NCBI RefSeq assembly: GCF_016888165.1
Contig: NZ_JACSWC010000438.1
Coordinates: 1 to 35,176 of the forward strand
Source: Halomicronema sp. CCY15110
Lineage (GTDB): Bacteria > Cyanobacteriota > Cyanobacteriia > Phormidesmidales > Phormidesmidaceae
Direction: 5' to 3'
Length of the DNA stretch: 35,176 nt
Below the pieces are notes generated by a model that ran no database searches, had not been told where the DNA came from, and saw only the letters and a list, made by a program, of their open reading frames with translations. Shown here piece by piece: positions 12,849 through 29,259 of the stretch; within the stretch, counting starts at the first letter, position 1, and every line of letters begins with the position of its first letter. Position numbers and translations under genes: made by a program.

Positions 12849-12854
12849 GGCACA

Positions 12855-12860
12855 CCTCCT
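12855..12860 (-). promoter_or_regulatory. Ribosome binding site that decides an ATT start
   Basis: AGGAGG on the minus strand is followed by TGTGCC and then ATT (12846-12848). The alternative GTG at 12659 has no such site and would remove the 63 N-terminal residues shared with the paralogue. Confidence 0.6.
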
Positions 12861-12869
12861 AAGCCGTCA

Positions 12870-13169
12870 TTGTGAACAAACCCAAGCTGCTCTAGTGAAT
12901 CGAATCTAGAGTTGCTAAAATTGTTAAGCACGATAAAATCGTCCACATCTGTGGATTGTGTAATTAAGTAAAGGCCCTATGCGAACTTTGGACGGTGAGC
13001 TAGGGTCTTTGCTTTTGGTCTTTTGTGAGCCAGTTGCCTTGAGCAACCGCGTAAGAACTACCCTGATTGCTTAAGACAGATTTTGAACCATAGGCATCAG
13101 TTCATCTGTTTTGATAGGCAGAGGTTAGCACTGGAATATAAGGGATTCAACCACTTAAAATTCTTAATA
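12870..13169. other. Gene-free region between primase copy 2 and the iterons
   Basis: No gene seen. A possible hairpin (AAGGCCCTA at 12971-12979 with TAGGGTCTT at 13001-13009, one G-T pair) is followed by TTTGCTTTTGG and might end a plus-strand transcript. It could also belong to a copy-control RNA, which cannot be decided from sequence. Confidence 0.4.
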
Positions 13170-13170
13170 C

Positions 13171-13593
13171 GGCAAAATGATAGGCAAGAGATACGGCAAA
13201 ATGATAGGCAATTCCCTACGCCAAATTGATAGGCGTAGACGCGCTATATACGGTAAAATGATAGGCAATTCCCTACGTCAAATTGATAGGCGTAGACGCG
13301 CTATATACGGCAAAATGATAGGCAATTCCCTACGCCAAATTGATAGGCAATTGGCCAAAACCTCTCGCCAGATACAAGTAAGCTGATGAGAGCATCCACT
13401 ATATACGGTAAAATGATAGGCAATTCCCTACGCCAAACTGATAGGCATTGACGCGCTACATACGGCAAAATGATAGGCAACTCCCTACGCCAAATTGATA
13501 GGCATTGACGCGCTACATACGACAAAATGATAGGCAACTCCCTACGCCAAATTGATAGGCAATTCCCTAAAAAACGTACGCTAAATTGATAGG
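13171..13593. repeat. Iteron array, probable vegetative replication origin
   Basis: TGATAGG occurs 14 times on the plus strand, at 13178, 13202, 13227, 13259, 13284, 13316, 13341, 13414, 13439, 13471, 13496, 13528, 13553 and 13587. Two iteron types alternate, CAAAATGATAGGCAA and CCAAATTGATAGGC, spaced 25 and 32 bp, so the array repeats with a 57-bp period. It is broken once, at 13348-13413. Such arrays bind the Rep protein encoded next door. An open frame of 69 codons inside it is a by-product of the repeats. Confidence 0.9.
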
Positions 13594-13661
13594 TGTTTTC
13601 TATTTTGAAAGAACGCCTTTATTATGAGGTTCATTAACCGAAGCTGTGGAAAGCATTTGTT

Positions 13662-14768
13662 ATGGGCAACTCAAGCACGCAACTTGATTTATTCGCAGTT
13701 GATAGCCAACTTGTTCGACTCTTGCCTCGTGCAGGCGCTTCGTTTCGTAATCCTGATGTTAATTTGCCCGTTCTCCGTGCAGATGCAGGTGGTTATTATT
13801 TAGAGATGAGGGTCGATGCTGATCCAGAGGAAATGAGTGAAGTTGGTCTGACGCGCCGGATTCCCTTGGAAAATCTTTCTAGAGAAGCATGGCAAGAGCT
13901 TAAAAAGCAGTACGACAACATAGACTTAGAAGCCTACTTAAGCAAAGGTATTAAAGGCTTAGAAAAAATTGAGGATATGCGGGTTCGACGGTTGACAGCA
14001 ACACTGCTTACCTTTCTAAATCCGCGACAAGTGGAATTAGTTCTTTATCTTTACAGAGCGGCCTCTGTTTGTGAGACTGGGCCAATAGCGAAATTTCGCT
14101 CGAATGATTTACTAGAAGTTATGGGCTATAGCCGCACTAAGGATGGTGGCTTTCATGCAAACATCAGATCCCAGCTTCATTGCGATCTAATGGCATTACA
14201 CAGAACGGAGCTAGTTTACGCTGAAGAAACTGAGACTGCTAATGGCATCGTCGCTGAAGTCACGATCAAAAACATTCTGCGTATTCAAAAATTTAAAGTT
14301 GACAATGTACAGCGTGATTTTGATACAGACAAAGCAGCTGATTATACCTACGGGTCAGCAGATGAATACTTAGTGAATTTGGAGTTCTTCCAAACACCAA
14401 CACCGGCTGGTGGTGATTATGTGCTTTTTGGCAATATTGACATGCAACAGCGAGTTGGAGGCAGCGCCAACAACAACTATGGAACAAAGCTACTTATATA
14501 TTTAGCTAGTCGACTAAAATGGGATTCTCCGAAAGACGGCCAGTATCTAACAATATCGAAACGTCATTTGTTCAAGAATTTGGACTTATTTGGAAGTAAT
14601 ACTTCTCGGAACAGCACTATTTTCTGGCGAACGGTTGATGAATTGAAGGAGAAAGGCTTCTTGCTAAATGCTTGTGAGATACCGGGCAAAAGGAAGAACA
14701 GTGTATTGATAGAGTTTCAGCTCAATACCGATAAGATTCGACTTAGCAGTAATAGCCACAATACATAA
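13662..14768 (+). CDS. Plasmid replication initiation protein (iteron-binding Rep)
   Basis: A 368-residue protein encoded 69 bp after the iteron array. The sequence suggests two winged-helix domains: a first with LTATLLTFLNPRQVELVLYLYRAA (about 111-135) and SNDLLEVMGYSRTKDGGFH, and a second with YGTKLLIYLASRLKW, LFKNLDLFGSNTSRNSTIFWRTVDELKEKGFLL (about 275-350). This plan is that of iteron-binding initiators of the RepA/TrfA type. The assignment rests on architecture and position; I do not recognise a named subfamily. It converges with the relaxase gene, and a long hairpin separates the two. No good ribosome site is seen before the ATG. Confidence 0.75.
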   Translation: MGNSSTQLDLFAVDSQLVRLLPRAGASFRNPDVNLPVLRADAGGYYLEMRVDADPEEMSEVGLTRRIPLENLSREAWQELKKQYDNIDLEAYLSKGIKGLEKIEDMRVRRLTATLLTFLNPRQVELVLYLYRAASVCETGPIAKFRSNDLLEVMGYSRTKDGGFHANIRSQLHCDLMALHRTELVYAEETETANGIVAEVTIKNILRIQKFKVDNVQRDFDTDKAADYTYGSADEYLVNLEFFQTPTPAGGDYVLFGNIDMQQRVGGSANNNYGTKLLIYLASRLKWDSPKDGQYLTISKRHLFKNLDLFGSNTSRNSTIFWRTVDELKEKGFLLNACEIPGKRKNSVLIEFQLNTDKIRLSSNSHNT

Positions 14769-14865
14769 AAATCTCTGCTCTATTCATGTTCTAGCCTTCG
14801 AGAAGGATGTTTACTCAACTACGTTTTCCTGATTCTCCGAAATTAATCATTTACGAAGAGCAAGC

Positions 14866-14906
14866 TTGACATACTCCCCCGTTTTCTAAACGGGGGAGTA
14901 TGTCAA
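14866..14906. terminator. 19-bp perfect inverted repeat between rep and relaxase genes
   Basis: Arms TTGACATACTCCCCCGTTT (14866-14884) and its complement (14888-14906) enclose TCT. It overlaps the relaxase stop codon and could stop transcription from both sides. CCCCCGTTT/AAACGGGGG hairpins are also common at IS200/IS605 ends, so it may be a transposon relic. Confidence 0.65.
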
Positions 14907-16120
14907 AGTTCCATATAGGGTTTCTTTAGCCGCCATTGCCACTTTTGTCGTTTTTGCTTCTCCTGAGTCAGATCATGAATTTGCCGATGCTGCTCAATTA
15001 GCTGTTGCTGCTGTGACTCCATCTGCGTCTGAATGACACTTTGGCAATAGTCTAGTTCTTCGCATTGCCCAAACCCTTGCCTCACCGCCTGGGCAGTATC
15101 GCCCTGCCTGATGATTTCTAATATCTCCTGTTCGGAATGTCCTGCGGAGATTGCGCCATTGGCGACTGTGCGATCTCGCTCTATCCCCGACTCCTGATTG
15201 GTCGATGGTTGGGCATAGTGCTCGTACAGCTCCCGCAGTTTCCGCTGGTACTCCTCATAGTCGGCCAGCTTCTGTTGGCACTCGGCAGAGCTCGCATTTG
15301 CCGTTTGCTGCAAGGTGCTGTCCTGGGCCGTGTCGTAATAAATTGAGTGATATTTCTGAAGACCTTCGAAGGAATAGGCGCGGCCCAATCGCCGTCCTGC
15401 AAAAGCAGAGCCGTCTATGCCGAAGCTGATACCCGTATAGCGATCGCCGCTGTGCCGGAGTTGAACGTCAATATCCTCGGCCTTGAGTCGTGTGACGAGC
15501 AGCGCCATCGTCGGTTTATCCGCTGTGGCTGCGTCAATCGCTGCCCACAACTTTTCCTTGGGCAACACCTCACCCGTTCGCGACTTTTGTCTTGACTCTC
15601 CAGTGGTGAGATTCTTGATGTGAATAGTCGGACGGTCGGGCATGGAAGCTAACCCAAATCGGTTCTCAAGCGATCGCTCAACCTTGCGGAGTCGCAACTT
15701 GCTGAAACTATCGTCAATCCATTCATTTGCCGTGTTGACCGTCGCCGCCACAATATGCCAGTGCTGCACCCCTCGCTTATGCTCTTGGTCGTGATGCTGC
15801 ACTGCAAAGTAGGCACAACGCTCATGACCCATTTCTGCAAGCAATCGTCGAGTGACAGCCGCCATCTGTTTCCGAGTCAACTCTTCTCCCGGCGTGAGAC
15901 TGACTGAGTAGTGAACCGCAATTTTCTCGACAGGTTTGCGCCTGGGAAGGGCTGCTTGCCACTCTAATTCTCGCGCTAGGTTTGCGGCTGTTTCGCCCAC
16001 CATGTTAGAAGCCAAAATAGCCTCTCCGGGCAAGCGCTGCGTGGAAGGTTGTTTTTCAGCATCTAGCACGTAAGCACAGAGCGCCTGAGCATCACTTGAC
16101 TTAGTAACTTTAATCCTCAT
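14903..16120 (-). CDS. MOB-family relaxase (HUH nickase)
   Basis: A 405-residue protein. The N-terminal relaxase domain has a candidate catalytic Tyr17 (LCAYVLD), the motif HYSVSLTPGEELT at 70-82, His110-Asp111 and the metal-binding HWH at 120-122 (VQHWHIVAATVN). These match the MOBP/Pfam Relaxase pattern. The C-terminal part is Gln-rich and helical. The enzyme nicks oriT and leads the strand into the recipient. MobC is encoded immediately upstream. The stop codon lies inside a 19-bp hairpin, so the tail may have been cut short by an insertion; some MOBP relaxases are longer. Start ATG 16120 is 44 bp after mobC. Confidence 0.88.
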   Translation of the reverse strand: MRIKVTKSSDAQALCAYVLDAEKQPSTQRLPGEAILASNMVGETAANLARELEWQAALPRRKPVEKIAVHYSVSLTPGEELTRKQMAAVTRRLLAEMGHERCAYFAVQHHDQEHKRGVQHWHIVAATVNTANEWIDDSFSKLRLRKVERSLENRFGLASMPDRPTIHIKNLTTGESRQKSRTGEVLPKEKLWAAIDAATADKPTMALLVTRLKAEDIDVQLRHSGDRYTGISFGIDGSAFAGRRLGRAYSFEGLQKYHSIYYDTAQDSTLQQTANASSAECQQKLADYEEYQRKLRELYEHYAQPSTNQESGIERDRTVANGAISAGHSEQEILEIIRQGDTAQAVRQGFGQCEELDYCQSVIQTQMESQQQQLIEQHRQIHDLTQEKQKRQKWQWRLKKPYMEL

Positions 16121-16164
16121 CGGAAAGCGTATGGTTGGATTTCTTTTAGGCAGGAATTAACCTC

Positions 16165-16530
16165 TTAAGCTAATCTATCGCCTCCGACCGCATCATGGAG
16201 CTGCTGCAAAATCTCCTGAACCGAGATACTTGTTTCCATTTGTGTCTGTCGTTGCAACTGCTTCATTGCATCGCGCAAAGCTGATAGTTGGCAGGTCAGC
16301 TTTGCGGATGCTTGACCTTCTGATTCTTCAATTAAAACTGATAGCGCTTCATTCAACGTCAGCGCAAACGCATGAAGCTGATGAAGAACCTGGCTGCTTG
16401 TACCTGATTCTTGAAGAATTAGATCTCGCGCATGTTGACGGCCATTGCCTCCGCTTAAAGCATCCAAGGTTTGCTTTTCATCTGGCGTAAGTCGTATAAC
16501 GACTCGCTCAGTTCGTTTTTGATCAGGCAT
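16165..16530 (-). CDS. mobC: MobC-like relaxosome accessory protein
   Basis: With the start at ATG 16530 (MPDQKRTE) the protein has 121 residues. Residues 4-35 (RTERVVIRLTPDEKQTLDALSGG) form a ribbon-helix-helix as in MobC/TraJ nicking accessory proteins; the rest is helical. Reading from 16578 would translate through the shared box, so the shorter start is preferred. It is followed by the relaxase, and the two probably share a transcript. MobC-type proteins bind oriT and help the relaxase open the DNA. Confidence 0.8.
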   Translation of the reverse strand: MPDQKRTERVVIRLTPDEKQTLDALSGGNGRQHARDLILQESGTSSQVLHQLHAFALTLNEALSVLIEESEGQASAKLTCQLSALRDAMKQLQRQTQMETSISVQEILQQLHDAVGGDRLA

Positions 16531-17064: not shown

Positions 17065-17683
17065 ATACAAATGGTGCCACTCTGCCACAACTTGCTATCG
17101 CGAAAAGTTGATCTTTGGAGGTGCGAAAGCAGGAGCAGCACTGGGGGCGATGCAGAGAGCACTGACCGGAGCACCATTAGAGCGACAAAAAGGGCCAAAA
17201 GTAGTGCGCTAACTAACGTATCTGTAGAGCGTCAGTCAGTGCGACAACCGGAGCGAAAGCAGGGGCAGTATCAGGTGTGGTGTTAGGCGCAGCAAACGGT
17301 GTTGTATTTGGAGTGCTATCAAATGCGGACATTAGTGATAAATAAAAGGCGCAAATCGGTGCAGTGGAGAGTGCTCAGAACGGTGCCAAACATGAGGCGG
17401 AAATTAATGGTGCTCAAAGGGCAGTATCAGGGGCACTTGACGGGGCAGCGTATAGAGCCAGAAATGAAACCACATCAAATGGGGATGATGGTGCGAAAAA
17501 TGGTGTTGCGTTTAGAGCGTCATCAAGTGTGAAAGTCGATCTCAAGAAAAGGGCGCTACCCAACGCGCAATTTAGCGCGTTGGAAAGTGATAAGAACCGG
17601 GCAAGGTTGAGAGCAATGGATAGTGCGTAGATCAGGGCGAAGTTAAGTGCGATGGCTGAGGCTGCTGTTTGGAGGAAATTGAA
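17065..17683 (+). pseudogene. Degenerate Ala/Gly-repeat region, probably a decayed gene
   Basis: No intact gene. Short plus-strand frames carry related Gly-Ala-rich pieces (GGAKAGAALGAMQRAL near 17118; TTGAKAGAVSGVVLGAANGV near 17240; AQNGAKHEAEINGAQRAVSGAL near 17375), broken by stops and frame changes. The spacing of GTGC, GCGC and GAGC every 12-15 bases suggests an imperfect repeat. A leader of the GCTANCGC family with a GGAGG lies at its 5' end (17088-17122), as for an expressed gene. The minus strand also has an open frame (17414-17716), but with simple Ala-Leu composition. Functional RNA or repeat DNA is an alternative. Confidence 0.4.
17088..17110 (+). promoter_or_regulatory. GCTANCGC leader hairpin, copy 9
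   Basis: CAACTT/AAGTTG stem (17088-17093, 17105-17110) with GCTATCGC in the loop, followed by GGAGG. It precedes the degenerate region, not an intact gene. Confidence 0.5.
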
Positions 17684-18271
17684 GTGACATCCGTTAAAGA
17701 TGTATTCAATCAACAATTAGAAGAAGAGAAGCAGGCACAAGTTGAATCATTCTCCCCACGGACAGTAAGAGATTTTATTCGGATCTGTCTTCCATACATT
17801 CGCAAAGAAGTTAAAAAAAAGACCTCATGGGACATCATTGCTAAAGCGATTAAAGCAGTGGCGGAAGAAAGTTACGACGTAAAAATTCGCATTGCACCAT
17901 CCACTGCAAAAAGAGCCTACTACGCACTGACTAGCAAGAAGAAAGGCAAACAATCAAAATCGCGATCGCGCTCCACCTCGACAACTTCCCAGCAATCCAA
18001 GCCTTCTGCTGAGGCCGCAGCACAAGTCCCATCTACAACATCAACACCAGAGCCAGCCCCAAGGCCGGAACCTGTAGCGCGATCGCCAGCGGCAGCAGAA
18101 CCCAAATCGGAAGCCGCAAAGCCAACTGCTGTTGATAAATCGCCTGCAGCAGACCAGCAGGTGACATCAACCCAAGATCTGCACCCTAATCGCTTTCGTG
18201 ACCGATTTAAGAAAGCCAAGAAGAGGAATCCCAAAACGACGACGGGATATGAAAACTGTAAATCTCTCTGA
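17684..18271 (+). CDS. TraK-like oriT-region DNA-binding protein
   Basis: I choose GTG 17684 because GGAGG lies 8 bp upstream; a TTG at 17669 would place that site inside the gene. The protein has 195 residues. About residues 25-90 are basic and helical (RTVRDFIRICLPYIRKEVKKKTSWDIIAKAI to STAKRAYYAL), the style of RP4 TraK or KfrA-type DNA binding. The rest is a Pro/Ala/Ser-rich linker and a basic tail (RFRDRFKKAKKRN). It precedes a ParA-like ATPase and a membrane protein, as traK precedes traL and traM. The TraK analogy is based on order and general likeness. Confidence 0.55.
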   Translation: MTSVKDVFNQQLEEEKQAQVESFSPRTVRDFIRICLPYIRKEVKKKTSWDIIAKAIKAVAEESYDVKIRIAPSTAKRAYYALTSKKKGKQSKSRSRSTSTTSQQSKPSAEAAAQVPSTTSTPEPAPRPEPVARSPAAAEPKSEAAKPTAVDKSPAADQQVTSTQDLHPNRFRDRFKKAKKRNPKTTTGYENCKSL

Positions 18272-18282
18272 GGAATGCACTC

Positions 18283-19065
18283 ATGGCTAACTCAACTCAA
18301 CAAAAACGTGCCGTCATGCTGGTTCCCGGCAAAGGTGGCACAGGCAAAACATTGTTCGCCCGAATGCTCTACTACGCCCTGGTCGAGGCCGGAGTCGATG
18401 TCATTGGATTTGACTCAGATACCGAAAACCCAGAGCTGGCTAACTATCACTCCCAGAAAAAGTATCAAGTCTACAAGGGCAACCTGCTGGAAATTGAAGG
18501 CTCTCACAAACTGCTGGAGATGTTGGACAAGAAAAAGCCTGATGTGGCCCTCATTGACATGCCAGCGGCCAGCGGCCACCAGACCCGCGATCGCATGGAA
18601 CACTTCAACCTCCTGGATCTAAGTGAAGACAAAGCAATGCCATATCGCTTCAGCTTTGTCTGCGTGTTGGATATTGGCCTGCCTGCGGTGCGCTCACTGC
18701 ATGATGTGATGACTTTTTGTGGCGATCGCGCTGACTATGTGGCTATCCGCAATCAATTCTGGGAAGACGGCAGCAAGTCAGACGACAGTAGTTTTGCCAT
18801 TTGGGAAGAGTCTGAGGCGTACAAATTGTTTGAATCGCTGAAAGGCATCGAGATTGCCATGCCTGCCTTAGACCGACTCACCTTTCAAGAGATGCACCCC
18901 AGCACTAACTTTTTCGATGCCGAGAAGCTACCAGTCGGCCACCGGCTCATCACTCAGTCATTCCTGCGGCGGGGGGTGGCTGAGTTAAATTTCGCAGCTC
19001 CTTACCTGGGCTTGTCTCCCAAGAATCTATCTGGTGTGCCCAAAGAGAGCGCAGGGGCAGCATGA
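18283..19065 (+). CDS. ParA/TraL-like P-loop ATPase
   Basis: A 260-residue protein with a deviant Walker A motif GKGGTGKT at residues 16-23, DSDTENPE near 45-52 and a Walker B-like strand DVALIDMPAA near 86-95. This is the ParA/MinD fold. In a partition locus one expects a ParB and parS, which are not visible. Here the gene lies in a relaxosome neighbourhood and overlaps a membrane-protein gene (ATGA), as in RP4 traL-traM, so a transfer role is favoured over partition. Both remain possible. Confidence 0.72.
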   Translation: MANSTQQKRAVMLVPGKGGTGKTLFARMLYYALVEAGVDVIGFDSDTENPELANYHSQKKYQVYKGNLLEIEGSHKLLEMLDKKKPDVALIDMPAASGHQTRDRMEHFNLLDLSEDKAMPYRFSFVCVLDIGLPAVRSLHDVMTFCGDRADYVAIRNQFWEDGSKSDDSSFAIWEESEAYKLFESLKGIEIAMPALDRLTFQEMHPSTNFFDAEKLPVGHRLITQSFLRRGVAELNFAAPYLGLSPKNLSGVPKESAGAA

Positions 19066-19880
19066 TGCAGAACATCAATGGTGATGGGCGCTCAGCTAAA
19101 GCGTCCGGTCAGAGCACCTCACCACCTCCATCTCAAGAAGACGATTCACTGATTCAGGCAGTGAGTGACGTAGCTCGCACCGTTGACCGACTGCAAATCA
19201 GTGTTGATCGACAAATCCGAGAACTGACGGAGCACGTCAACCGATGTGAGACTAATCATCAGGAGGATATGGGGCATTGGCGAACAGTAACGGAGGAGCT
19301 GAGCAATCTCCTCAAGGTCAAAGCACAGTCCACTCAAGAGGTGAGCAGCAGCTACATGCAACTCGCCGAACACTTAGCGAAGTTCGCCAGATACTTAACG
19401 ATGTCCGAGATGACCTTGAGCAGGGTCGAGCAGCCGTTGCTCAATTTCTTGAAAGTAGCGCCCAGTTTGGGCGAAGGTTCAGCGACAACCGAAGCGAGCC
19501 CGTGGCAGACGCAGGAGGTCTTACAGGCCCTCTCCGAAGCCAAGGCGAACAACCAACAAATGCAGTCGGAGTTGAAGCAAACCCTGCGCCAGATGCAGCG
19601 GGGCGCGATCGCCAGCCACCCAAAAAAAGAAACTTCGATTTGGACTGATTTGGCAAACTGGAAAGCCGCCCTGGTCTGGTTTGGCATGGGCTCAGTCTTT
19701 GTCGCGGGGATGATGTATGTCGTCTTTCGCGGCAGTGGCTTCCAGCAAGCGATGCGGGCAATGCAACTACAGAGCGGGACCGTCGATGCGCGTTTGGAGC
19801 GGATTGAAATCTGGTTGGGCATTGAGGGTGTCAGCAACGAAGACCTTGAATTTGAAGATCGGCCCATGCCTGAAGAGTAG
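19062..19880 (+). CDS. TraM-like coiled-coil membrane protein
   Basis: A 272-residue protein with long helical, coiled-coil regions at about 28-125 and 148-182, one membrane segment at about 202-222 and an acidic tail (EDLEFEDRPMPEE). The start overlaps the ATPase stop (ATGA), so translation is coupled. Position and topology match TraM/MobB-type proteins that link the relaxosome to the membrane. A 123-codon frame nested in the +1 phase (19277-19648) is noted separately. A strong terminator follows. Confidence 0.62.
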   Translation: MMQNINGDGRSAKASGQSTSPPPSQEDDSLIQAVSDVARTVDRLQISVDRQIRELTEHVNRCETNHQEDMGHWRTVTEELSNLLKVKAQSTQEVSSSYMQLAEHLAKFARYLTMSEMTLSRVEQPLLNFLKVAPSLGEGSATTEASPWQTQEVLQALSEAKANNQQMQSELKQTLRQMQRGAIASHPKKETSIWTDLANWKAALVWFGMGSVFVAGMMYVVFRGSGFQQAMRAMQLQSGTVDARLERIEIWLGIEGVSNEDLEFEDRPMPEE

Positions 19881-19902
19881 CTAGAGCTCTCAAAAAAATT
19901 GG

Positions 19903-19937
19903 AAGGCACGGCAGGAATTTTATTCCTGCCGTGTCTT
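19903..19937 (+). terminator. Intrinsic terminator after the traKLM-like operon
   Basis: A 16-bp stem (19903-19918 with 19922-19937, one G-T pair) around TTT, with CACGGCAGGAAT as the core of the left arm. It follows the stop at 19880 and A7 precedes the left arm, so it may act in both directions. Confidence 0.75.
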
Positions 19938-19940
19938 AGT

Positions 19941-20134
19941 TTTGCAACATCAGGGGCCTTGCAAAAACCCCCGCATTGCACCACCAAAGTCAGAGCCTTG
20001 CAAACGCTCTAACGTTGGTGGATTGGGCAGACTACAGGATTTTGCAGCATCCTGTACTGTTCCCCTACGCTGCCGACCTCTGCAAAAGCCGGTGAGCGCA
20101 GTTCTATTTCATCAGGGCGCTAGCCCATGCCCTG
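19941..20134 (+). other. Tandem hairpins showing TTGCAA-like loops
   Basis: Successive stems enclose a similar loop: GGGG/CCCC at 19953-19971 (CCTTGCAAAAA); AGAGC/GCTCT at 19992-20010 (CTTGCAAAC), itself inside CCACCAA/TTGGTGG; TACAGGAT/ATCCTGTA at 20033-20056 (TTTGCAGC). A fourth TGCAAAA follows at 20081. No gene is seen. It may be a structured RNA or a protein-binding array. Confidence 0.45.
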
Positions 20135-20767
20135 CTACAAAGCTTTCAGAATTTCAGGGTGAGCGCTCAGGGCAGCTTTGATGTCAGCATTTAGCATGTG
20201 CTTGCCTTCGCCCCTGGCATTGCGCCAAGGGATGTCGAAATGCGTGGCGATCGCTCGCAGTTTCTTGGTCGTTTTGACGTTGCTCTCCAAGATGGCCTGG
20301 ACAGCAGCAGGGATTTCAGGCTGAGCTAAGTCAGCATCAGCAACGGTCAGTTCTGCCACTGGCTCGACGACAGACTCAGAGACTGAAGTCGAGTCCCACT
20401 TGGCGTCACAGTAGGCGCGAAAATCGTAACCAGCGATGGCCGCGTAGAGTCCGGCCAGGACAATCAACCGGCAGGCTGACTGAGTCCATTGCTCAACGTC
20501 GGCGGCCCACTCCGCTTGGTAGCAGGCGCGAAACTGGCGGCCAGCTTTGATGCTGTATAAGCCAGCCAAGACGGCCAGCCAAAAGGTAACTTGGATGGCG
20601 ATGCTGGTGATAGTCCAGGCGTCACGGTAAATGCGCCGAGCCTTCTTCGAGGTCAGTGCTTTGTAGGTAGCGATCGCGATTGGGGACAGCGTTTTGTAGG
20701 TTGCTGCTGCTGTCTCCACAATGGTTTGCCCTGCGATCGCGTAGGGCTTAGAAAGTGTTGCAAACAT
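20135..20767 (-). CDS. Membrane protein with C-terminal PWRNARG-type domain
   Basis: Start ATG 20767 follows AAGGAGGAACCT. The protein has 210 residues. Two related membrane units occur at about 55-75 (LAVLAGLYSIKAGRQFRACY) and 97-120 (LIVLAGLYAAIAGYDFRAYC), which look like an internal duplication. The C-terminal 45 residues (KKLRAIATHFDIPWRNARG to DIKAALSAH) form a small helical domain of a type often seen in cyanobacteria and resembling Rho-N/SAP-like domains. Function unknown. Leader copy 6 lies in its 5' region. Confidence 0.7.
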   Translation of the reverse strand: MFATLSKPYAIAGQTIVETAAATYKTLSPIAIATYKALTSKKARRIYRDAWTITSIAIQVTFWLAVLAGLYSIKAGRQFRACYQAEWAADVEQWTQSACRLIVLAGLYAAIAGYDFRAYCDAKWDSTSVSESVVEPVAELTVADADLAQPEIPAAVQAILESNVKTTKKLRAIATHFDIPWRNARGEGKHMLNADIKAALSAHPEILKAL

Positions 20768-20925: not shown

Positions 20926-21411
20926 ATGACTGAACCCACTCGATTTGTCTTGAACGGCCAGGAGCCAGTACCGTGCGACAGCCTTGAGGACTGGCAACGG
21001 TTCATGGGGGACATCGCAGGCCGAACAGTGGCTCAGAATGTGGTCGGCAAGTTTCATATCACAACGACCTTTGAGGGTGCCAATCTCGGCAGTTCAACAG
21101 AGCCAAAGTTTTTCTTGACGGTTGTTGCGGAAAGTGAAGACCCACCTTTCTTGAGTGAAACCTGGGAGCGGGCGGAGACAACCCATCAGGCAGTGATGCG
21201 CTGTGCAAAAGGTCTCAGCAACCTGACCCCGGAAAAAATCGCTGCTGGTCACAGGTTTGTTGGTTTTGGGGTGCAATCTGACAGACTTTGGTTCGTAATG
21301 GAGTCTGAAGAGAGCGCGATCTCAGCCCTCCCAGAGTCAGCTACTAACTGGCATCGGGAGGGCCACACAATCGTTTTTACGCCACCTGTCAGGAATCAGC
21401 AACAACCGTGA
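20926..21411 (+). CDS. Unknown 161-residue protein
   Basis: Soluble mixed alpha/beta composition with no recognised motif. It is divergent from the membrane protein gene and its 3' end overlaps the lipoprotein-like gene by 23 bp. It lies alone on the plus strand among minus-strand genes. Start ATG 20926 has no strong ribosome site. Codon usage resembles its neighbours. Confidence 0.55.
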   Translation: MTEPTRFVLNGQEPVPCDSLEDWQRFMGDIAGRTVAQNVVGKFHITTTFEGANLGSSTEPKFFLTVVAESEDPPFLSETWERAETTHQAVMRCAKGLSNLTPEKIAAGHRFVGFGVQSDRLWFVMESEESAISALPESATNWHREGHTIVFTPPVRNQQQP

Positions 21412-21715
21412 CGCATAGATTATCTCTGAGCGCGAACAAGGTTTCGGTTGCCTGATTAACTCGCCGGGTATACTGTCTTGCCAATTCCTCATTGTCGAAA
21501 CAAACCTGGAATTCGCCTTCTGTGGAATAGGTAACAAGGCCGTTGTACTCCTGAGCCAATTCAAGGGCTTCGGTAAGTTCATCAGCGCTGGATGCTTCGA
21601 CTTCTTCGGCATCAGGGACTTCCTGCATTGTTGGGGAAAGGTCGCAGCCATCGAAGCCGACAAGCCCGACTCCCAGTAACAATAGGACTGCTAGGGAGAT
21701 GATTCTTCTGAACAT
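21389..21715 (-). CDS. Putative small exported lipoprotein-like protein
   Basis: Start ATG 21715 (MFRRIISLAVLLLLGVG) follows CACAAGG. The 108-residue product has a hydrophobic leader and then FDGC, which is only a weak lipobox, followed by an acidic, mature helical part (ADELTEALELAQEY). It may be a lipoprotein or a normally cleaved secreted protein. Function unknown. Leader copy 7 precedes it. Confidence 0.6.
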   Translation of the reverse strand: MFRRIISLAVLLLLGVGLVGFDGCDLSPTMQEVPDAEEVEASSADELTEALELAQEYNGLVTYSTEGEFQVCFDNEELARQYTRRVNQATETLFALRDNLCVTVVADS

Positions 21716-21750
21716 AATGACAACTACCTTGTGAAACAACACAGCGGAGT

Positions 21751-21789
21751 GCTGCATTGCTACATCGCGGTAGCGTTCAAAAAAGCAGC
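21751..21789 (-). promoter_or_regulatory. GCTANCGC leader, copy 7
   Basis: GCTGC/GCAGC outer arms and a GCTAC/GTAGC inner stem hold CGCTACCGCGATG on the minus strand, about 50 bases before ATG 21715. Confidence 0.52.
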
Positions 21790-22319: not shown

Positions 22320-25300
22320 TCAGTAGGCCATCTCTGCTGATGCCCTGCGTGTTTGTCGTGGCTGGGGCGTTGGCTGCTGTGGCTGCTGCGCCGTCGCCAG
22401 CGTTTGTTTGCCCGCCGCGATCGCTGCTTGCATCTGTTGGCGATCGCGCTGGTTAATCATCAGTGCAGGGCTGCGGTAGTCCAAGGGGGGCTTTTCGCTG
22501 CTGCCTGTTTCCTGAGTGTAGAGGGCATTGAGTTGCTTGCCCTTTTCAATGATTTCAGCGGTTAAGGGTTCGTTGCCACGAGCGATCGCCACCGCGCACC
22601 ACTGCCTGAGTTCTTCGCGGGAGGGGGAATAGCCCTCATCAGCGCTGGGCTGAGCCTGGTCGGGTTGCTTCAGCTCGGTGGGATTGCCTTGGTCAGCGCT
22701 GGCCGCAGGAGATGCCTGATAGTCCCCTTGCGGCTCTGCGGCCACGGGCGTCACTTCACGGTCGCGGTTACGGTACTGCGTCAAATAGTCCACGCTCTCT
22801 GGTGCATCCATGCCGTTATCCACCAGGGCCGCTTGATATGCCGTTGCCTGTTGCAGCAGCCGTGGGTCAGGTTCACCAGTGCCGACGATTTCTTTTAACT
22901 GGATGCAGTCGTCTTGCCTACTTTGCTTCGGGGTCACTCGCGCGGTCCATTCACTCTCCTGCTGAGCCAGCTTGAGATAGCGCTTATCGACTCCAACGCT
23001 CATCATGAGTTCTGGATCAGCCTGGTCGGGCCGCACGGGAGCATCGAGGCGCATTGCATGGGTGCCGTGCTGCGTCGAGTGCAATGCCCATAGTTCTTCA
23101 GGATGTTGCTGGCTGCGTTCCTTGAACTGCGGGAGTACTTCCTCGAAGGGGCGATCAATGTCGAGCACCATCAGGTCAGGGAATCGGGCAAAACTGTGAT
23201 CTTGGTTTGTGAACTGAGTCGAGCTAACCTCAAGTTGACTCGCGCTGCTGGATGAGGCCATGAAACTGCCGTCCGGCTCAAACGTTGCCAGGGTATCTGC
23301 ATCGGGCACAGACATTAAATCAAGACGCTCGTTGAGCATGTCCCTCATCGGCTGGTCAACAAACTGAAAGCCCCCAACTGGCTCTCCCTCATATTTGAAC
23401 TGAATTGGTAGCGGCGCGACATCTCGCTCAAAGTCTTCTAATGCCAATTTATTGGGAAAGTCAATGGTAGCGATCGCTTGCACCACATTTGCTTGAGTTA
23501 AAAGCTCAGTGCGATGGGGTAAGCCTCGCTCCTCCGCTGCTTGAACGATCGCCAGTACCTCTGGATCGTCTGTCTGATAATCCCTCACGTCGTCGTTATT
23601 GACGAAGCGGTATAGGGAACGGTTAGCGTCGGTTGGCAGTATCGCGGTTTCGGCCTGGGCGACCTGCGGTTCTGGCTCTGGAGCCAGGTCGAGCACTTGC
23701 ATCGTAGCCGTCTTACCGGACTCAGCAATCTCGATATGCGCCTTGACTGTAGTGCCAATGGGCAGGTGCATCGAGCGAGCCGAAAGCGCCCCAAGCTGTT
23801 TTTCCTCACCCTCTGCCGTGACGATCGCTACCGATGGTGGGGTGCGCGTTTCACCATTCCGCTCGTAGCTGAACTCACTGAAACGGGCGGTGTATTCGCC
23901 GGGCGGGATCTGCCCTGCTTCATTGCTGTCGTACTGAATACCTGTCAGCGTAATTTCGGGGACAGACTCCAGGCGATCGACAATTTCAGGAGTAAATTTT
24001 TTCAGGGCCAGCCCCATGCCGTCACTTTCCCGCCACAGCTCTGAAAGATAAGCCTCGCGTTCCACTTTGGGAATCTCAGCGATCGCGGTATCAACCTCAC
24101 GGGTGGCCCGCTCCATCATTTCGTCGAGGTCATTTTGTCGGGCAAAGGGGGCCTGAATCTGAGCGCTCGGCTGCTTGATGACAAGGGTGCGCTTCGGCAG
24201 GCTTTGCAGGCGCTCGGTTAAATTGTGCTCACTGACGGACTCTGGCGCAACGGGGCCGAGAGTCGTGGTCGTGCGCTCACCGTTGCGGGCAGTGTAGGTC
24301 AAATCAGCCACCCACTGCTGTGACTTGCTCTGTTCGTTGCGCCTGACAGAGACTTCCCAATCTGGCTGGGGGCCGTTGGCCCTCCAGATGGGCAGGTCTC
24401 CATGTTCGTCTTGCAGCTTCTGAATGACGAGGCTTCTGCCACTGGGAGAGGTGAGCCGTAGAGTCGGCTGCTCGTCTTCCGGGCGCTTCTCCCGCAATCG
24501 GTCTTTGGCGGCCTGATAATTAGCGATGCGCTCATTGTAGGTGCGGGCGATCGCTAGGGCCTTCTCTTCCTGCTCCGGTGTGGCCGTCTTAGGAAACAAA
24601 TCGCGAAACGCCTCGTTCCGCAGCTCTGGCAGGTCAACATCTTTGTAGACGGCATTGACCGCCTCAACATTCCACCCAATCGGCTCTTGAGTGTTGGTGG
24701 GCATCGACCGACCATTGGTGTAGGCATTCGGGTCTTTCTGGTTTTGCCGGAGTTCGTGGTCTTTATAGGCCAGCCCTCGGATGAAACCGTGAAGGTCGTC
24801 GTCGATGCCTCTGGAGCTTTTGGCAGTATCGACAGCGGTTTGCAGGTTCACCGCATTGGGGCCGTCAACGGCATCGGAGAAGATCTTGGCAGCGTCTTGA
24901 AGTTTGCGCTGAATAAACTGTTGGCGTTGTGGAGGAGGAAATGAAGATAGTTTCCTAGAAGCGTTTACTATCTGCTCCATTCGTTCCCGAAATTGATAGG
25001 CCGGAAACCCCTGTACCTCCAACTGATAGTCACTGGGGATGTTCAGTTTTCCTTCGTCGGCCTGCTGTAGCTGCTTCGAGAATGACCTAGCAACCTGTCT
25101 GAGTAGTCCCTCCTGCTGCTCTTGAGGGGCGTATTGCATCTCCAGGGCAAAGCTCTGTAGGGTCATGCCAGCATTGGCAACTTTCCCCGTGGGATTATCG
25201 GTGGTGATTCCCCATGCCCGCCAAGTGGCTGAGGAATGGGATTCATTTGGATGCCAAGGGTGCTTAATTTTTTTCTGCTTGGCAACTTCAGGGGGTTTTT

Positions 25301-27038
25301 GATCCGGTGCGGTGCGATCAATAAACTCTTTGACCGCTACCGGGTATTCAGCGCGGGCAATGCGGCTTTCTCGACCCTGATCCATCTGCTCAATGAGTTG
25401 CCCGATCGCTGCCCGTCCTGCCTCGTACTGCTGCGCTGGGGGCAGGCTTTCGGCATCTGCTAACTGCTGCCGGAGCTGCTGCGGCAGGTCGGGTACGGTT
25501 GCCTCATAGCCGACAAAGTAGCCATTGGCATCTCGATCAAAGTCAGTGATGGCGATGTTCTTGGCTGTCCAGGGACTGAGGTAAGCGACTCCGTTTTTGG
25601 AAAATGCCTCTCTGTCCTGGGCTCTCAAGTCTTCGGTGTTATTGATGGCGATTGCTGCTGCCCCGACGTTCGGAAAGGGAGAACGGTAGTAGGCCACGAT
25701 CGCTCCGTGGGGCAAGTCTTTATTGCACACCTCCCACGGTTTCATTTGCGAGTGGTGCTGGGCCATCGCCGAGGGCACCGAAATGCCGCGCACAGCACTC
25801 TCTTGCCATTCGCCCTTGATGTCCCGTTCGAGGGCTTTATTGACCTTGCTGAACCCGGTGAGCTGCCCGTATTTATCGGCTTTGATAGTTTCGTATAACC
25901 ATTCAGATTTAGCTTTGGGGGCATCCTCGCCCATCTCATCAGGGGCTTGGGGGCGTTCCTGCTGCCGGTCTTTCCGCTCGACATAGCGCTGCTGGAGCTG
26001 AACCGGATCACCTGCGACCGCTGCTAGCTCTTCAACTTGAGCCTTGATGCGGGGATTAAACTCATGCAGCGTCGCCTCTGGGATGCAGCCTTTGACCTGT
26101 GGCCCCACTGCCTGTTGGCCATACTGTCCATCAGATTTGCGGTTGACCCAGAGCTGTGAAACCTCCTGAAGTCCTGGAGTCGATAAGCGCCCATCATCGC
26201 CTTTGATATCGTTCGTCGAGATGATGGCATCAACGCCCAGGCGATCGCACCAGCGACTAGCGCCCATCGTGCCTTTCATTAACCCCGGCAGGTCAGGGGT
26301 GGCCGCCCGAAACTGCGATACCGTGCGTCCGGCCAGCCCATTGATTTGTCTCTCAGCAGCAGCGGTGGCCGCATCGACTTGCTCCAGGTCTTGACCAATG
26401 GCGGTGATGTCTGGGTCTACGCCAGCTTTCTCGAAAGCTTTGGCAGTAATGGCATCGCGCTCCGCATCGGTGATGAGGTCTTTCATGATGCGATGAGGCA
26501 CCAGCATCGTGCCGTCGCCCATCTTGTCGTACAGGCTTTCAATCTCAGCCTGGGGGATCGGTTGGCCGCGCTTATCGAGTAGCTGGCCGTCACCGTGCGA
26601 TCGCTGTTCGTCATCGATCACCAGGATGCGGGCCTGCGGCATGGCGGCTGAAGCTATCCCATCAGAGGCGACCAGACTGCCGTAGGCCACAAAGTTGTGG
26701 GGAGAGTTGCGATCGCCCGCGTAAATCGGTTCAATGCCTCGCTCAGCATCGCCCTCAGTCATCAGTCGGGCGGTGTCTGGGTCGGTAAAGTACCCAGACC
26801 TACCGTTGGTGAAGACCAAGACCTTACCTTCATCTTCGAGTCGCTGGCGATCAGCCTCATTCACGCCATCGTAAAATTTGCCCGTGAAGAACTCGGCTTC
26901 GATGCCGTGCGTCTTTAGCCAGTGCTCCAGATAAGAGTTCTCAACCTCCTTGAACTGGCGCTTTTGGGTGCCGCCGATCGGTTCGTGGAGGTCTTGGCCT
27001 GTTTTTACGTCAATTTGTCCAATCTGAAAGCTAACCAT
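22320..27038 (-). CDS. Giant polymerase-like protein: possible double-psi-barrel RNA-polymerase core fused to an AEP-like domain
   Basis: A 1572-residue protein. About residues 130-310 carry ARILVIDDE, YDKMGDGTMLVP and SQFRAATPDLPGLMKGT with Lys255-Gly256. About 445-515 carry AYYRSP and ITDFDRDANGYFVGYE with Asp499, Asp501 and Asp503. This order (QxR..KG, then RxP, then DxDxD) is that of the two double-psi barrels of single-chain RNA polymerases related to QDE-1 and YonO. The Gly of the usual DbDGD is Arg. A central helical region and an OB-like part (about 1028-1118) follow. Residues about 1285-1385 have VLDID (Asp1293, Asp1295) and STQHGTH (His1327), an AEP-like pattern. It lies behind SSB and box D, so a conjugative or replicative priming role is plausible. 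Family assignment is by eye. Confidence 0.5.
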   Translation of the reverse strand: MVSFQIGQIDVKTGQDLHEPIGGTQKRQFKEVENSYLEHWLKTHGIEAEFFTGKFYDGVNEADRQRLEDEGKVLVFTNGRSGYFTDPDTARLMTEGDAERGIEPIYAGDRNSPHNFVAYGSLVASDGIASAAMPQARILVIDDEQRSHGDGQLLDKRGQPIPQAEIESLYDKMGDGTMLVPHRIMKDLITDAERDAITAKAFEKAGVDPDITAIGQDLEQVDAATAAAERQINGLAGRTVSQFRAATPDLPGLMKGTMGASRWCDRLGVDAIISTNDIKGDDGRLSTPGLQEVSQLWVNRKSDGQYGQQAVGPQVKGCIPEATLHEFNPRIKAQVEELAAVAGDPVQLQQRYVERKDRQQERPQAPDEMGEDAPKAKSEWLYETIKADKYGQLTGFSKVNKALERDIKGEWQESAVRGISVPSAMAQHHSQMKPWEVCNKDLPHGAIVAYYRSPFPNVGAAAIAINNTEDLRAQDREAFSKNGVAYLSPWTAKNIAITDFDRDANGYFVGYEATVPDLPQQLRQQLADAESLPPAQQYEAGRAAIGQLIEQMDQGRESRIARAEYPVAVKEFIDRTAPDQKPPEVAKQKKIKHPWHPNESHSSATWRAWGITTDNPTGKVANAGMTLQSFALEMQYAPQEQQEGLLRQVARSFSKQLQQADEGKLNIPSDYQLEVQGFPAYQFRERMEQIVNASRKLSSFPPPQRQQFIQRKLQDAAKIFSDAVDGPNAVNLQTAVDTAKSSRGIDDDLHGFIRGLAYKDHELRQNQKDPNAYTNGRSMPTNTQEPIGWNVEAVNAVYKDVDLPELRNEAFRDLFPKTATPEQEEKALAIARTYNERIANYQAAKDRLREKRPEDEQPTLRLTSPSGRSLVIQKLQDEHGDLPIWRANGPQPDWEVSVRRNEQSKSQQWVADLTYTARNGERTTTTLGPVAPESVSEHNLTERLQSLPKRTLVIKQPSAQIQAPFARQNDLDEMMERATREVDTAIAEIPKVEREAYLSELWRESDGMGLALKKFTPEIVDRLESVPEITLTGIQYDSNEAGQIPPGEYTARFSEFSYERNGETRTPPSVAIVTAEGEEKQLGALSARSMHLPIGTTVKAHIEIAESGKTATMQVLDLAPEPEPQVAQAETAILPTDANRSLYRFVNNDDVRDYQTDDPEVLAIVQAAEERGLPHRTELLTQANVVQAIATIDFPNKLALEDFERDVAPLPIQFKYEGEPVGGFQFVDQPMRDMLNERLDLMSVPDADTLATFEPDGSFMASSSSASQLEVSSTQFTNQDHSFARFPDLMVLDIDRPFEEVLPQFKERSQQHPEELWALHSTQHGTHAMRLDAPVRPDQADPELMMSVGVDKRYLKLAQQESEWTARVTPKQSRQDDCIQLKEIVGTGEPDPRLLQQATAYQAALVDNGMDAPESVDYLTQYRNRDREVTPVAAEPQGDYQASPAASADQGNPTELKQPDQAQPSADEGYSPSREELRQWCAVAIARGNEPLTAEIIEKGKQLNALYTQETGSSEKPPLDYRSPALMINQRDRQQMQAAIAAGKQTLATAQQPQQPTPQPRQTRRASAEMAY

Positions 27039-27082: not shown

Positions 27083-27391
27083 CTAGCCATTCGTCGGTGG
27101 TATGTATTTGAACGCTGGTGGCCGTTTGTGGCCGTTGGCTTCTAGCCATTTCTGTTCTTGCTGAAATTCAGCCCAGGCTTCTTCTGCTGTAAGCGTTATT
27201 GGCGAAAGGTCAATCTCTTCATCCTCCTCATCGCTATCTCGCAAAGGAGGCTCATCGTCATCGAGCACCCCCGCTTCGATTAGCTCGCTAATATCAGCCC
27301 CTCCAGACAGCAGGGATTCAACATCTTCATCGCTGCTGGCAAGCTCGGCTCGGTGCATATCGCGGTCAGAAAGGTTGTCTGATGCAGTCAT
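27083..27391 (-). CDS. Small acidic protein upstream of the polymerase-like gene
   Basis: Start ATG 27391 follows TAGGAGACAGATC. The product has 102 residues with a very acidic middle (DDDEPPLRDSDEEDEE) and a C-terminal segment AEEAWAEFQQEQKWLEANGHKRPP. No recognised domain. It ends 44 bp before the polymerase-like gene and may be its partner. A reading from 27538 would pass through the SSB terminator and is rejected. Confidence 0.68.
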   Translation of the reverse strand: MTASDNLSDRDMHRAELASSDEDVESLLSGGADISELIEAGVLDDDEPPLRDSDEEDEEIDLSPITLTAEEAWAEFQQEQKWLEANGHKRPPAFKYIPPTNG

Positions 27392-27464: not shown

Positions 27465-27504
27465 AAAAAAGAATCCCCACCCTCAACCGAGGCTGAGAAT
27501 GGGG
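27465..27504 (-). terminator. Intrinsic terminator of the ssb gene
   Basis: On the minus strand CCCCATTCTCA pairs with TGAGGGTGGGG (two G-T pairs) around a GC-rich loop, followed by ATTCTTTTTT. Confidence 0.75.
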
Positions 27505-27512
27505 GGCAGAGC

Positions 27513-27887
27513 CTAGAACTCTTCGTCTTCGTAACCATCGTTGTCGTCGTTAGCCTGGTCGCCCGCCTTGGGCGTCAGGTTGTCAACGCGCAGCGCCTTG
27601 ACCATAAGGCGGGAGCGGTTCTCACCCGTCGCCTGGTCAGTCCAGCGGGCCTCTGTCAGAGAACCCATGACCGCCACATGCGATCCTTGGCGCAAGTAGT
27701 TTGCAACGTATTCCGCCGACTTTCCCCACACCTCTACCGGAATGCGATGCGTGGACTCCTGACGCTCGCCGTTCTTCATGTACCGCTCATTCAGGTACAC
27801 GAGCATTCGGGAGGTGCAAGCACCGGACTCGAAGTATTTAACTTCAGGGTCGCCGCCAAGGTGGCCAATAATCATTACGTTGTTCAT
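27513..27887 (-). CDS. ssb: Single-stranded DNA-binding protein
   Basis: A 124-residue OB-fold protein starting MNNVMIIGHLGGDPEVKYFESG, with RIPVEVWGKSAEYVANYLRQGSHVAVMGSL in the middle. These are standard SSB landmarks. The acidic tail ends DGYEDEEF, a variant of the usual D-D-x-P-F tip, so binding to host partner proteins may differ. Box D is 134 bp upstream. Plasmid SSBs are often made in the recipient during conjugation to protect the entering strand. Confidence 0.93.
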   Translation of the reverse strand: MNNVMIIGHLGGDPEVKYFESGACTSRMLVYLNERYMKNGERQESTHRIPVEVWGKSAEYVANYLRQGSHVAVMGSLTEARWTDQATGENRSRLMVKALRVDNLTPKAGDQANDDNDGYEDEEF

Positions 27888-28119: not shown

Positions 28120-28161
28120 GGGGACGCGGTGAAACCGTTTAACCCCTACGAGGAAAGAAAC

Positions 28162-29259
28162 ATGGCTCGACGAAATCAACGAACATCGACCCAGGACAAA
28201 ATCGCTGTGGCTAGAGCAAAGAAAGCCACAGCATTCCGCAAAAAGGCAACCAGCTTAGAGGCCAAAGCGGGGGACAAACTCCGCGATCGCGATATGGGCA
28301 CCCATCGCAAATTGGCTCAGGCCCTTACCGCCCGTAGAGAAGGGCATCGAATGGTGCAACTGAAAACGGCACTCTCCTATCTGGCTGATGGCCTTGAGGC
28401 CGATGCTTTGGACTATCCCTTATCAGCGCTGAGCAAAGTTGCTCAGGTGGAATACGCCGTGAGCGTTGCCGCCCGGTACGGTCTTGATGAGGCCGCGATC
28501 GCGCAGCGAGACATGAACGGTCGTTCGCTCTGGGATGTCCAAGGCATTGCGGCTGAATGCCGCCAACCCGAATCAAGTATCGGGATGCTGTACGGAGAGT
28601 TGGGCCTGAGTGCCCCGACTGAGATGGTGGCGCTGATTCATCGGCTCCACGACATCATCGAAGGTTCCGGCTGCATTGCTTGGGAGGCTGAGGAACTGCT
28701 GCGGCTGCGGGCAGAAGTCCGGTTAAAGAAAATTCCCGGCTTCATTCCCACTCCACCGGCTTTGGTGGACGAGCTGCTGCACTACCTGAACCTACAGGTA
28801 GGCGATCGCCTGCTCGAACCCGCTGCGGGTGATGGCGTGATTCTGGAACGGGTGCGAGAGTTCTTTCCTGACATGCCGCTGCACTGCTGCGAGATCAACC
28901 TGGATTTGAACCGCATCCTCCAATTAGCTGGCTTCGAGCCAGAATGCCGCGATTATTTCGACTGGGAACCCAGCGAGGGCCAGCGACCGAATAAGATTGC
29001 GGCTAATCCCCCATTCGAGGGCCTGGAAGATGCGGACTTCGTTTATCGCATGTGGGAACATCTAGCCCCCGGTGGCCGCCTTGCCACCATCACCAGCAAC
29101 TCATGGTCGTTCTCTTCTCGGAAGAAGGCGAATGAGTTTCGGGAATGGATGGGCCAAGTGCCACAAATCATCGTGGACAAGGAGAACTCCCGTGATGCCT
29201 TCAAGCCCAGCGGCTGCAACATCCTGACGCGATTGCTTGTGCTACAAAAGCCTCAGTAG
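28162..29259 (+). CDS. N6-adenine DNA methyltransferase, orphan
   Basis: Start ATG 28162 follows GAGGAAAG. A 365-residue protein with motif I LLEPAAGDG at 217-225 for AdoMet binding and motif IV NPPF at 282-285 for N6-adenine transfer. A basic helical N-terminal region (about 1-190) may bind DNA. No restriction enzyme is next to it. The plasmid may use it to protect its DNA in new hosts or to regulate genes. It is divergent from ssb. An upstream GTG at 28129 is in frame but lacks as good a ribosome site. Confidence 0.85.
   Translation: MARRNQRTSTQDKIAVARAKKATAFRKKATSLEAKAGDKLRDRDMGTHRKLAQALTARREGHRMVQLKTALSYLADGLEADALDYPLSALSKVAQVEYAVSVAARYGLDEAAIAQRDMNGRSLWDVQGIAAECRQPESSIGMLYGELGLSAPTEMVALIHRLHDIIEGSGCIAWEAEELLRLRAEVRLKKIPGFIPTPPALVDELLHYLNLQVGDRLLEPAAGDGVILERVREFFPDMPLHCCEINLDLNRILQLAGFEPECRDYFDWEPSEGQRPNKIAANPPFEGLEDADFVYRMWEHLAPGGRLATITSNSWSFSSRKKANEFREWMGQVPQIIVDKENSRDAFKPSGCNILTRLLVLQKPQ

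Follow-up and report, generated by a model that had tools for sequence, protein, structure and literature searches.

The minus strand of the 35,176-nucleotide stretch of Halomicronema sp. CCY15110 DNA analysed here (the whole of which we call the window; positions 1-35176 of one of the 443 contigs that make up a 6.15-Mb assembly) holds an open reading frame (ORF) at 22320-27038 that starts with ATG, encodes 1572 amino acids (aa) and contains no internal stop. From this ORF and the alignment of its family, we regard its product as, in all likelihood, a two-barrel polymerase (two double-psi beta-barrels in a single chain, as in YonO and QDE-1), followed by a variable C-terminal module. A preliminary description, made from the letters alone, had listed several short motifs in this protein, and all of them are present with the order and numbering given there: QFR at residues 242-244, LMKGT with K255 and G256, AYYRSP at 449-454 and TDFDRD with D499, D501 and D503, and, close to the other end, VLDID at 1291-1295 and STQHGTH ending at H1327. 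The former group had been read as a QDE-1/YonO-type RNA polymerase core and the latter as a catalytic domain of the archaeo-eukaryotic primase (AEP) type, the two together making a fusion of an undescribed kind. As described below, the first of these readings gained support from the conservation of the core, from the Pfam matches of its relatives and from an in-register alignment with YonO, and the second did not hold.

Conservation of the polymerase motifs

The family alignment comprises 59 rows including the window, representing 58 genes (L005 and L145 being one gene; here and below, L-numbers are labels of family loci). These rows were taken from 99 family ORFs, after removal of truncated or broken copies and of stretches fetched twice with overlap, and were fitted to a profile built from an earlier set of 31 rows; a few of them are nearly identical to each other (L163/L164, L133/L135/L136 and L157/L158). 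K255, G256, T257, K279, G289, D388, P454, N466, D499, D501 and D503 are the same in 59/59 rows, Q242, R244 and G280 in 58/59, and R452 in 50/59. Further downstream, K590, G618 and K740 are kept in 58/58 rows, and Q733, D737 and S741 in 57 of the 58. The preliminary description had pointed to K255 and the three aspartates as the residues whose free variation among homologues would speak against a polymerase; none of them varies in this set. In the earlier set the triad was present in 30 of 31 rows, the remaining ORF (L008) being broken before the triad and followed by another ORF that carries DYDGD. Invariant or nearly so across the 59 aligned rows, these polymerase-type motifs are thus far beyond what chance would produce.

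All of these motifs lie within a conserved core (residues 1-1120; 23679-27038, minus strand, as are the motif positions that follow), of which residues 3-1117 are matched by relatives on plasmids. The predicted first barrel would contain the QFR...KGT motif (residues 242-257; 26268-26315) and the second basic residue, K279 (26202-26204), and the predicted second barrel the RSP...N motif (residues 452-466; 25641-25685) and the putative catalytic triad DFDRD (residues 499-503; 25530-25544). Two motifs follow, NPTGKVAN (residues 615-622; 25173-25196) and LQTAVDTAKSS (residues 732-742; 24813-24845), which align with IGxxSN and IDxAKT of YonO, respectively. In the QDE-1 structure paper, Q736, K743 and K767 are placed in the first barrel and D1007, D1009 and D1011 in the second (PMC1750930). 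The order of a glutamine and two lysines, then three aspartates, is the order seen in the plasmid family, where Q242 and K255 would be the equivalents of Q736 and K743, and in both proteins 24 residues separate the lysines. The protein therefore has both the DxDxD triad of two-barrel single-chain polymerases and the two basic residues that precede it in the same chain, so that its sequence presents an intact and strongly conserved two-barrel active-site signature, arranged as in YonO.

The residue between the second and the third aspartate is less constant. Position 502 is glycine in 51 rows, arginine in five and lysine in three, and rows with arginine or lysine fall inside the clade of the window, next to relatives which keep glycine (according to a quick tree). 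In one clade the proteins are for the most part some 890 aa long, and 9/10 of its rows have DTDGD as the triad.

Relatives and links to YonO

A tblastn search with the window protein found matches in 61 of 72,556 plasmid records in PLSDB (best E 2e-106), and the 60 matches listed are all cyanobacterial by genus name. The matching plasmids are conjugative in 27 cases, mobilizable in 12 and non-mobilizable in 22, and the places matched are annotated as 'hypothetical protein', not annotated, or once called 'ribonuclease H'. One strain may carry the gene several times: Nostoc sp. C052 has matches, some of them short, on five plasmids (CP040273-CP040277), Pseudanabaena galeata CCNP1313 on three, and some plasmids carry two matching places. 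On one Pseudanabaena plasmid (L033), two diverged members from different clades (18205-20565 and 11983-16476) lie about 1.7 kb apart. A homologue (LBWT_RS29955) is also present on plasmid pLBX of Leptolyngbya boryana. In the species collection 13 loci, found with six short peptide patterns, match the window protein, and so do 13/386 genomes of the phylum, its own included; with a more distant family member as the query, 30/292 genomes matched, again counting its own. A search of the host genome with the family profile gave the window and no second locus. Among viral contigs, searches with three family alignments gave 23, 51 and 66 pattern stretches, none of them a relative, and two queries against phage records found no family member.

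The relation to named families becomes visible through these relatives. The Pfam family of RNA-dependent RNA polymerases (RdRP, PF05183) is matched by 3/30 members at best E 5.6e-5, with 0.0062 as the best value of any unrelated family in the 25 listed, and by 3/8 members of a second set. L141 even passes the curated cut-off (E 5.5e-6; 25.8 bits vs 23.8), with L140 (7e-5) and L033:18205 (5.9e-5) below it, and the matches span the DFDGD region. In a PHROG scan of the same 30 members, 13 matched phrog_34895, of unknown function (best 9.2e-52), three matched phrog_4291, which bears the name 'RNA-dependent RNA polymerase' (best 1.4e-8), and three matched phrog_8308 (best 0.0014), which is the family of YonO itself. 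Weak matches to phrog_8308 were also recorded for L040 (1.8e-3), L012 (0.015) and L033:18205 (0.037).

We then compared whole profiles. When the 59 family rows were aligned by hhalign to 22 YonO sequences, out of 78 YonO loci, the score was 34.8 over 214 columns, with 40 column shuffles reaching at most 25.9 and a reversed profile 20.5. The motifs fall in register in this alignment: RSP, DxDGD, NxxGxVAN with NIGEYSN, and AVDxAKS with IDFAKT. In the earlier 31-row comparison, two clades other than that of the window exceed their best controls also when used alone (26.2 vs 20.1 and 22.9 vs 19.3). A relation to YonO and the RdRPs can thus be detected in sequence by way of L141, the weak phrog_8308 matches and the profile alignment.

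Several results weigh against this interpretation and need to be set beside it. At E up to 1 the window protein itself has no match in Pfam, NCBIfam or PHROGs (and hence none to phrog_8308, the YonO family proper), and among PDB sequences it has none at E up to 10; the 1120-aa core, searched by itself, yielded just a chance match at 0.25, so that homology of the protein to YonO and the RdRPs runs entirely through relatives. Family profiles and members gave nothing, or chance matches, against PDB sequences. The probability that hhalign itself assigns to the YonO alignment is 4.9% (E 0.008), the earlier 31-row version reached 31.0 where one of six controls came to 27.9 and the others to no more, and in that version two clades used alone stay below their best control (23.6 vs 31.0 for the clade of the window; 25.7 vs 27.6 for that of L035). 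In its triad the window protein has arginine where glycine stands in most of its family and in 22/22 YonO rows. An AlphaFold2 model of residues 1-1120, built from 14 sequences, has a mean predicted local distance difference test (pLDDT) score of 60.7 and leaves residues 412-518, the region of the second barrel, unfolded; a Foldseek search with this partly unfolded core model gave no match at E < 0.001 (top E 0.035). In the model, residues 240-258, 271-279 and 289-305 form strands that would suit a first barrel without proving it. Finally, a 6.77-Mb contig (G091:C3), chromosomal by its size, carries some of the members, so that a role in plasmids may not be the general rule for the family.

The C-terminal region and the neighbouring genes

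Past residue 1120 the family is modular. The window protein carries there a module of approximately residues 1141-1415 (22794-23618, minus strand) with VLDID at 23154-23168 and STQHGTH at 23058-23078. It is a genuine module, kept in two genomes: L020 has it too, the two C-termini being 77% identical over their whole length. L021, the core of which is 80% identical to that of the window, has instead another module, GKP...AMRGYGRTHTTR, which by eye is also present in L022, L024, L032, L033 and L038. In L022 an RNase H domain (PF00075, E 1.1e-27) follows the core directly, and in L037, a protein of 2806 aa, RNase H occupies residues 2181-2325 (4.5e-39) with a weaker second copy. These two members belong to different clades, L037 standing on a long branch, and the domain was found in 2/10 C-termini scanned and in 2/59 rows with a profile built from the L022 and L037 domains. 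Judged by title or abstract, none of the papers surveyed evidently describes RNase H fused to a two-barrel polymerase. Judging from these exchanges, the C-terminal third of the family is an exchangeable accessory region.

The proposal that the module of the window is an AEP domain fared less well. DID and H1327, whose loss in homologues had been named as a point against that proposal, are kept in both copies of the module, but the module itself is absent from the rest of the 59 rows. Apart from L020, the only relative found was locus L042 of genome G389, whose place on the contig is what one would expect if it were the L020 gene itself; the two matches of one search had E values of 2 and 4. 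A further candidate, L043 (E 3.8e-4), was rejected as a chance match, as it appears to lie inside a 687-aa ORF that reads by eye like a membrane transporter. Residues 1140-1440 match no Pfam family at E up to 10, and hence no AEP profile. The motif pair was assessed with a loose pattern of AEP type, hhDh[DE]...[ST]..G.H, which occurred in 22/2000 shuffles of the 1572-aa protein and in 2/220 background ORFs (about 1%), so that the pair is close to what chance gives; one of the two background ORFs is akin to a pair of AEP-like ORFs in the window. With hhalign, the C-terminus aligned to three AEP-like ORFs elsewhere than at the motifs and scored 18.2, while the best of 30 shuffles scored 21.0, and a model of the module from two sequences had an uninformative pLDDT of 37.8. 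As the module is found in so few rows, with neither a profile match nor other relatives, we do not accept a fusion with AEP, and the undescribed combination once proposed has no firm AEP domain on which to rest; since both copies keep DID and H1327, the AEP nature of the module counts as unproven and not as refuted.

The two AEP-like ORFs of the window are convergent and related to each other (9561-11198, plus strand, 545 aa; 11208-12659, minus strand, 483 aa). They show AEP-like patterns (LIDLD/LLDIDIGS...SSSVSGGLH/TSSYSQGLH), with no match in Pfam at E up to 0.01 or in PHROGs at E up to 0.1, and are related to L033:8244-10028 on the Pseudanabaena plasmid.

Directly upstream of the polymerase gene lies a small acidic ORF (27083-27391, minus strand), whose start we set at an internal ATG after comparing it with L020 and L021. 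Counting the window, 13/16 loci have a small ORF that either overlaps the start of the polymerase or stops at most about 45 bases from it; with a limit of about 90 bases the count is 14/16, and by reading the sequences the same acidic protein can be recognised in 10/16. In the remaining two loci (L022 and L023), tblastn with the small ORF of the window finds matches just upstream of the polymerase. Still further upstream is a gene for a single-stranded DNA-binding protein (SSB; 27513-27887, minus strand; PF00436, E 3.3e-24). Because a terminator-like hairpin (27475-27504) stands between the SSB gene and the small ORF, SSB and polymerase need not be co-transcribed; the terminator scan as a whole finds no excess of such hairpins (12 vs 13.0 in shuffles). 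In 41 fetched stretches, the window not counted, an SSB of the window type is present in 6, a RadC-like protein, a relaxase and ParA in 4 each, and a VirB4-like protein in 2, all of these counts being lower bounds, since window proteins alone served as queries and some stretches are short. On the other side of the polymerase, past its 3' end (20926-21757), genes for proteins of 161 and 122 aa have matches that flank the polymerase on both sides in L020 (8264-9288 and 14830-17076), three for the 161-aa protein and four for the 122-aa protein.

The window looks like part of a plasmid, given its SSB, a MobA/VirD2-type relaxase (14903-16120; PF03432), a VirB4/TraC-like ATPase (490-3339; the match lies below the family cut-offs), a ParA-like ATPase (CbiA domain) and an iteron-like array at 13168-13569, which consists of 57-bp higher-order repeats with AAATTGATAGGC-type units. 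The SSB gene upstream of the polymerase had been mentioned in the preliminary description. A 368-aa ORF without a Pfam match lies 3' of the array (13662-14768, plus strand), and the two are perhaps a plasmid origin and its Rep protein, the latter suggested by position. The window also encodes an IS605-type TnpB/OrfB (6801-8087, minus strand; PF01385, PF07282) and a 376-aa ORF (28129-29259, plus strand), the C-terminal part of which matches the methyltransferase-named phrog_15406 (5.5e-36) as well as other very long phage protein families. A 24-bp tandem repeat of about nine copies lies at 1-222 inside an open frame, and 17080-17660 appears by eye to be rich in short repeated motifs around GGTGC/AGTGCG.

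Possible roles and known systems

Our preferred interpretation is that the gene encodes a single-chain two-barrel RNA polymerase of the YonO/QDE-1 group, which probably copies plasmid DNA into RNA, be it as transcripts or as primers. In such an enzyme K255 and K279 would act on the incoming nucleotide and D499, D501 and D503 would hold metals, while the small acidic protein encoded upstream might be its partner. That it uses a DNA template is likely by analogy with YonO, a proven DNA-dependent RNA polymerase which makes RNA transcripts from NTPs, is strictly DNA-templated and is dead when its triad is mutated (PMC5467207). The enzyme may serve the plasmid itself, transcribing its DNA or priming on it with RNA, perhaps while that DNA is single-stranded. 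Because several plasmids of one strain carry matches, SSB and transfer genes lie nearby, and RNase H is associated with the family, we find such a plasmid housekeeping role reasonably probable. Whether transcription rather than priming is the task seems to us close to an even question.

One plausible alternative, tentative in our judgement, is that the protein is mainly a primase, providing single-stranded plasmid DNA, in replication or after conjugative entry, with short RNA primers, which the RNase H fused in some relatives would then remove from RNA-DNA hybrids. On one hand, RNase H behind the core in two clades (one of the two on a long branch), the SSB genes found with the polymerase in six of the 41 fetched stretches and in the window, the relaxase and VirB4-like genes, and the multiple plasmids per strain would all suit a primer-making enzyme. 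On the other hand, RNase H is confined to two rows, the Pfam scan recognises no primase or helicase domain in the window protein, and YonO, the closest enzyme that has been tested, is a processive transcriptase.

It is improbable that the protein has two engines, that is, a catalytic AEP domain in residues 1140-1400 beside the two-barrel polymerase: the motif pair fits the loose AEP-type pattern and is kept in L020, and the pattern recurs in the two other ORFs of the window, but the module is rare and isolated, its alignment to three AEP-like ORFs stays at the level of shuffles, and the pLDDT of its model is low. We consider it similarly doubtful that the protein is a two-barrel DNA polymerase like PolD, which has the same barrels, or that the replacement of Gly502 by arginine or lysine (8/59 rows) has abolished its activity in this clade, as all catalytic aspartates and lysines are invariant and the family aligns with YonO, an RNA polymerase and the enzyme with which its profile was compared. 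Least probable of all is a bacterial RdRP that copies RNA into double-stranded RNA in the defence or regulation of plasmid or host: among named Pfam families the relatives match eukaryotic RdRP best, and phrog_4291 bears a similar name, but YonO does not use RNA templates, SSB and RNase H suggest that DNA or hybrids are involved, and the annotation tables seen, which were not searched systematically, contain no Dicer- or Argonaute-like gene, two of them showing CRISPR-associated genes.

If the preferred assignment to the YonO/QDE-1 group is right, a family akin to YonO and to the polymerases of RNA interference resides, annotated as hypothetical, on many cyanobacterial plasmids, and it may hold forms showing how single-chain two-barrel polymerases diversified. 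Its RNase H fusions point to work on RNA-DNA hybrids. A bolder idea, which we put forward as speculation, is that large cyanobacterial plasmids carry a modular RNA-making engine built on the RNA-polymerase/RNA-silencing fold and not on a primase fold, some versions of which, fused to RNase H, would make and erase their own RNA-DNA hybrids, so that the plasmid would replicate and transfer with a self-contained system of priming or of transcribing single strands. As strains in culture collections have copies on their plasmids (pLBX is one), the role of a plasmid RNA polymerase is directly testable.

The class as such is known, according to the literature consulted: YonO-like proteins have been reported in main genomes of cyanobacteria (PMC5467207), YonO relatives are mentioned in mobile elements (PMC7824862), and plasmid single-subunit RNA polymerases are already in print. 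What seems to be new, as a variant of this class, is a large family on cyanobacterial plasmids with exchangeable C-termini, RNase H among them, which published plasmid or cyanobacterial members may partly overlap. With YonO of phage SPbeta it shares the single chain and the order of KG, SxFK, RSP...N, DxDGD, IGxxSN and IDxAKS/T, where the likeness of KG and SxFK, outside the region aligned by hhalign, was judged by eye. YonO differs in its size (839 aa in all, against a core of about 1120 aa), in being encoded by a phage and not a plasmid, and in having DxDGD where the window protein has DFDRD; the latter also bears an extra C-terminal module and has no direct profile match. QDE-1 and the cellular RdRPs (PF05183) share the set of one glutamine, two lysines and DxDxD with the same spacing of lysines, and L141 scores above their cut-off, but they are eukaryotic enzymes of RNA silencing which the window protein itself does not match. 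The RNA polymerases of phages phi14:2 (gp66) and P23-45 (gp64 and gp96) are similar, as far as their published descriptions go, in having both barrels in one chain and, in gp96, an accessory fusion, there to a tape-measure protein; they are virion or phage enzymes, and the likeness is drawn from those descriptions. AEP, which is tabulated as a family separate from two-barrel polymerases (PMC7281927), shares with the C-terminal module only the short pattern, which is not conserved in the family and comes without a profile match.

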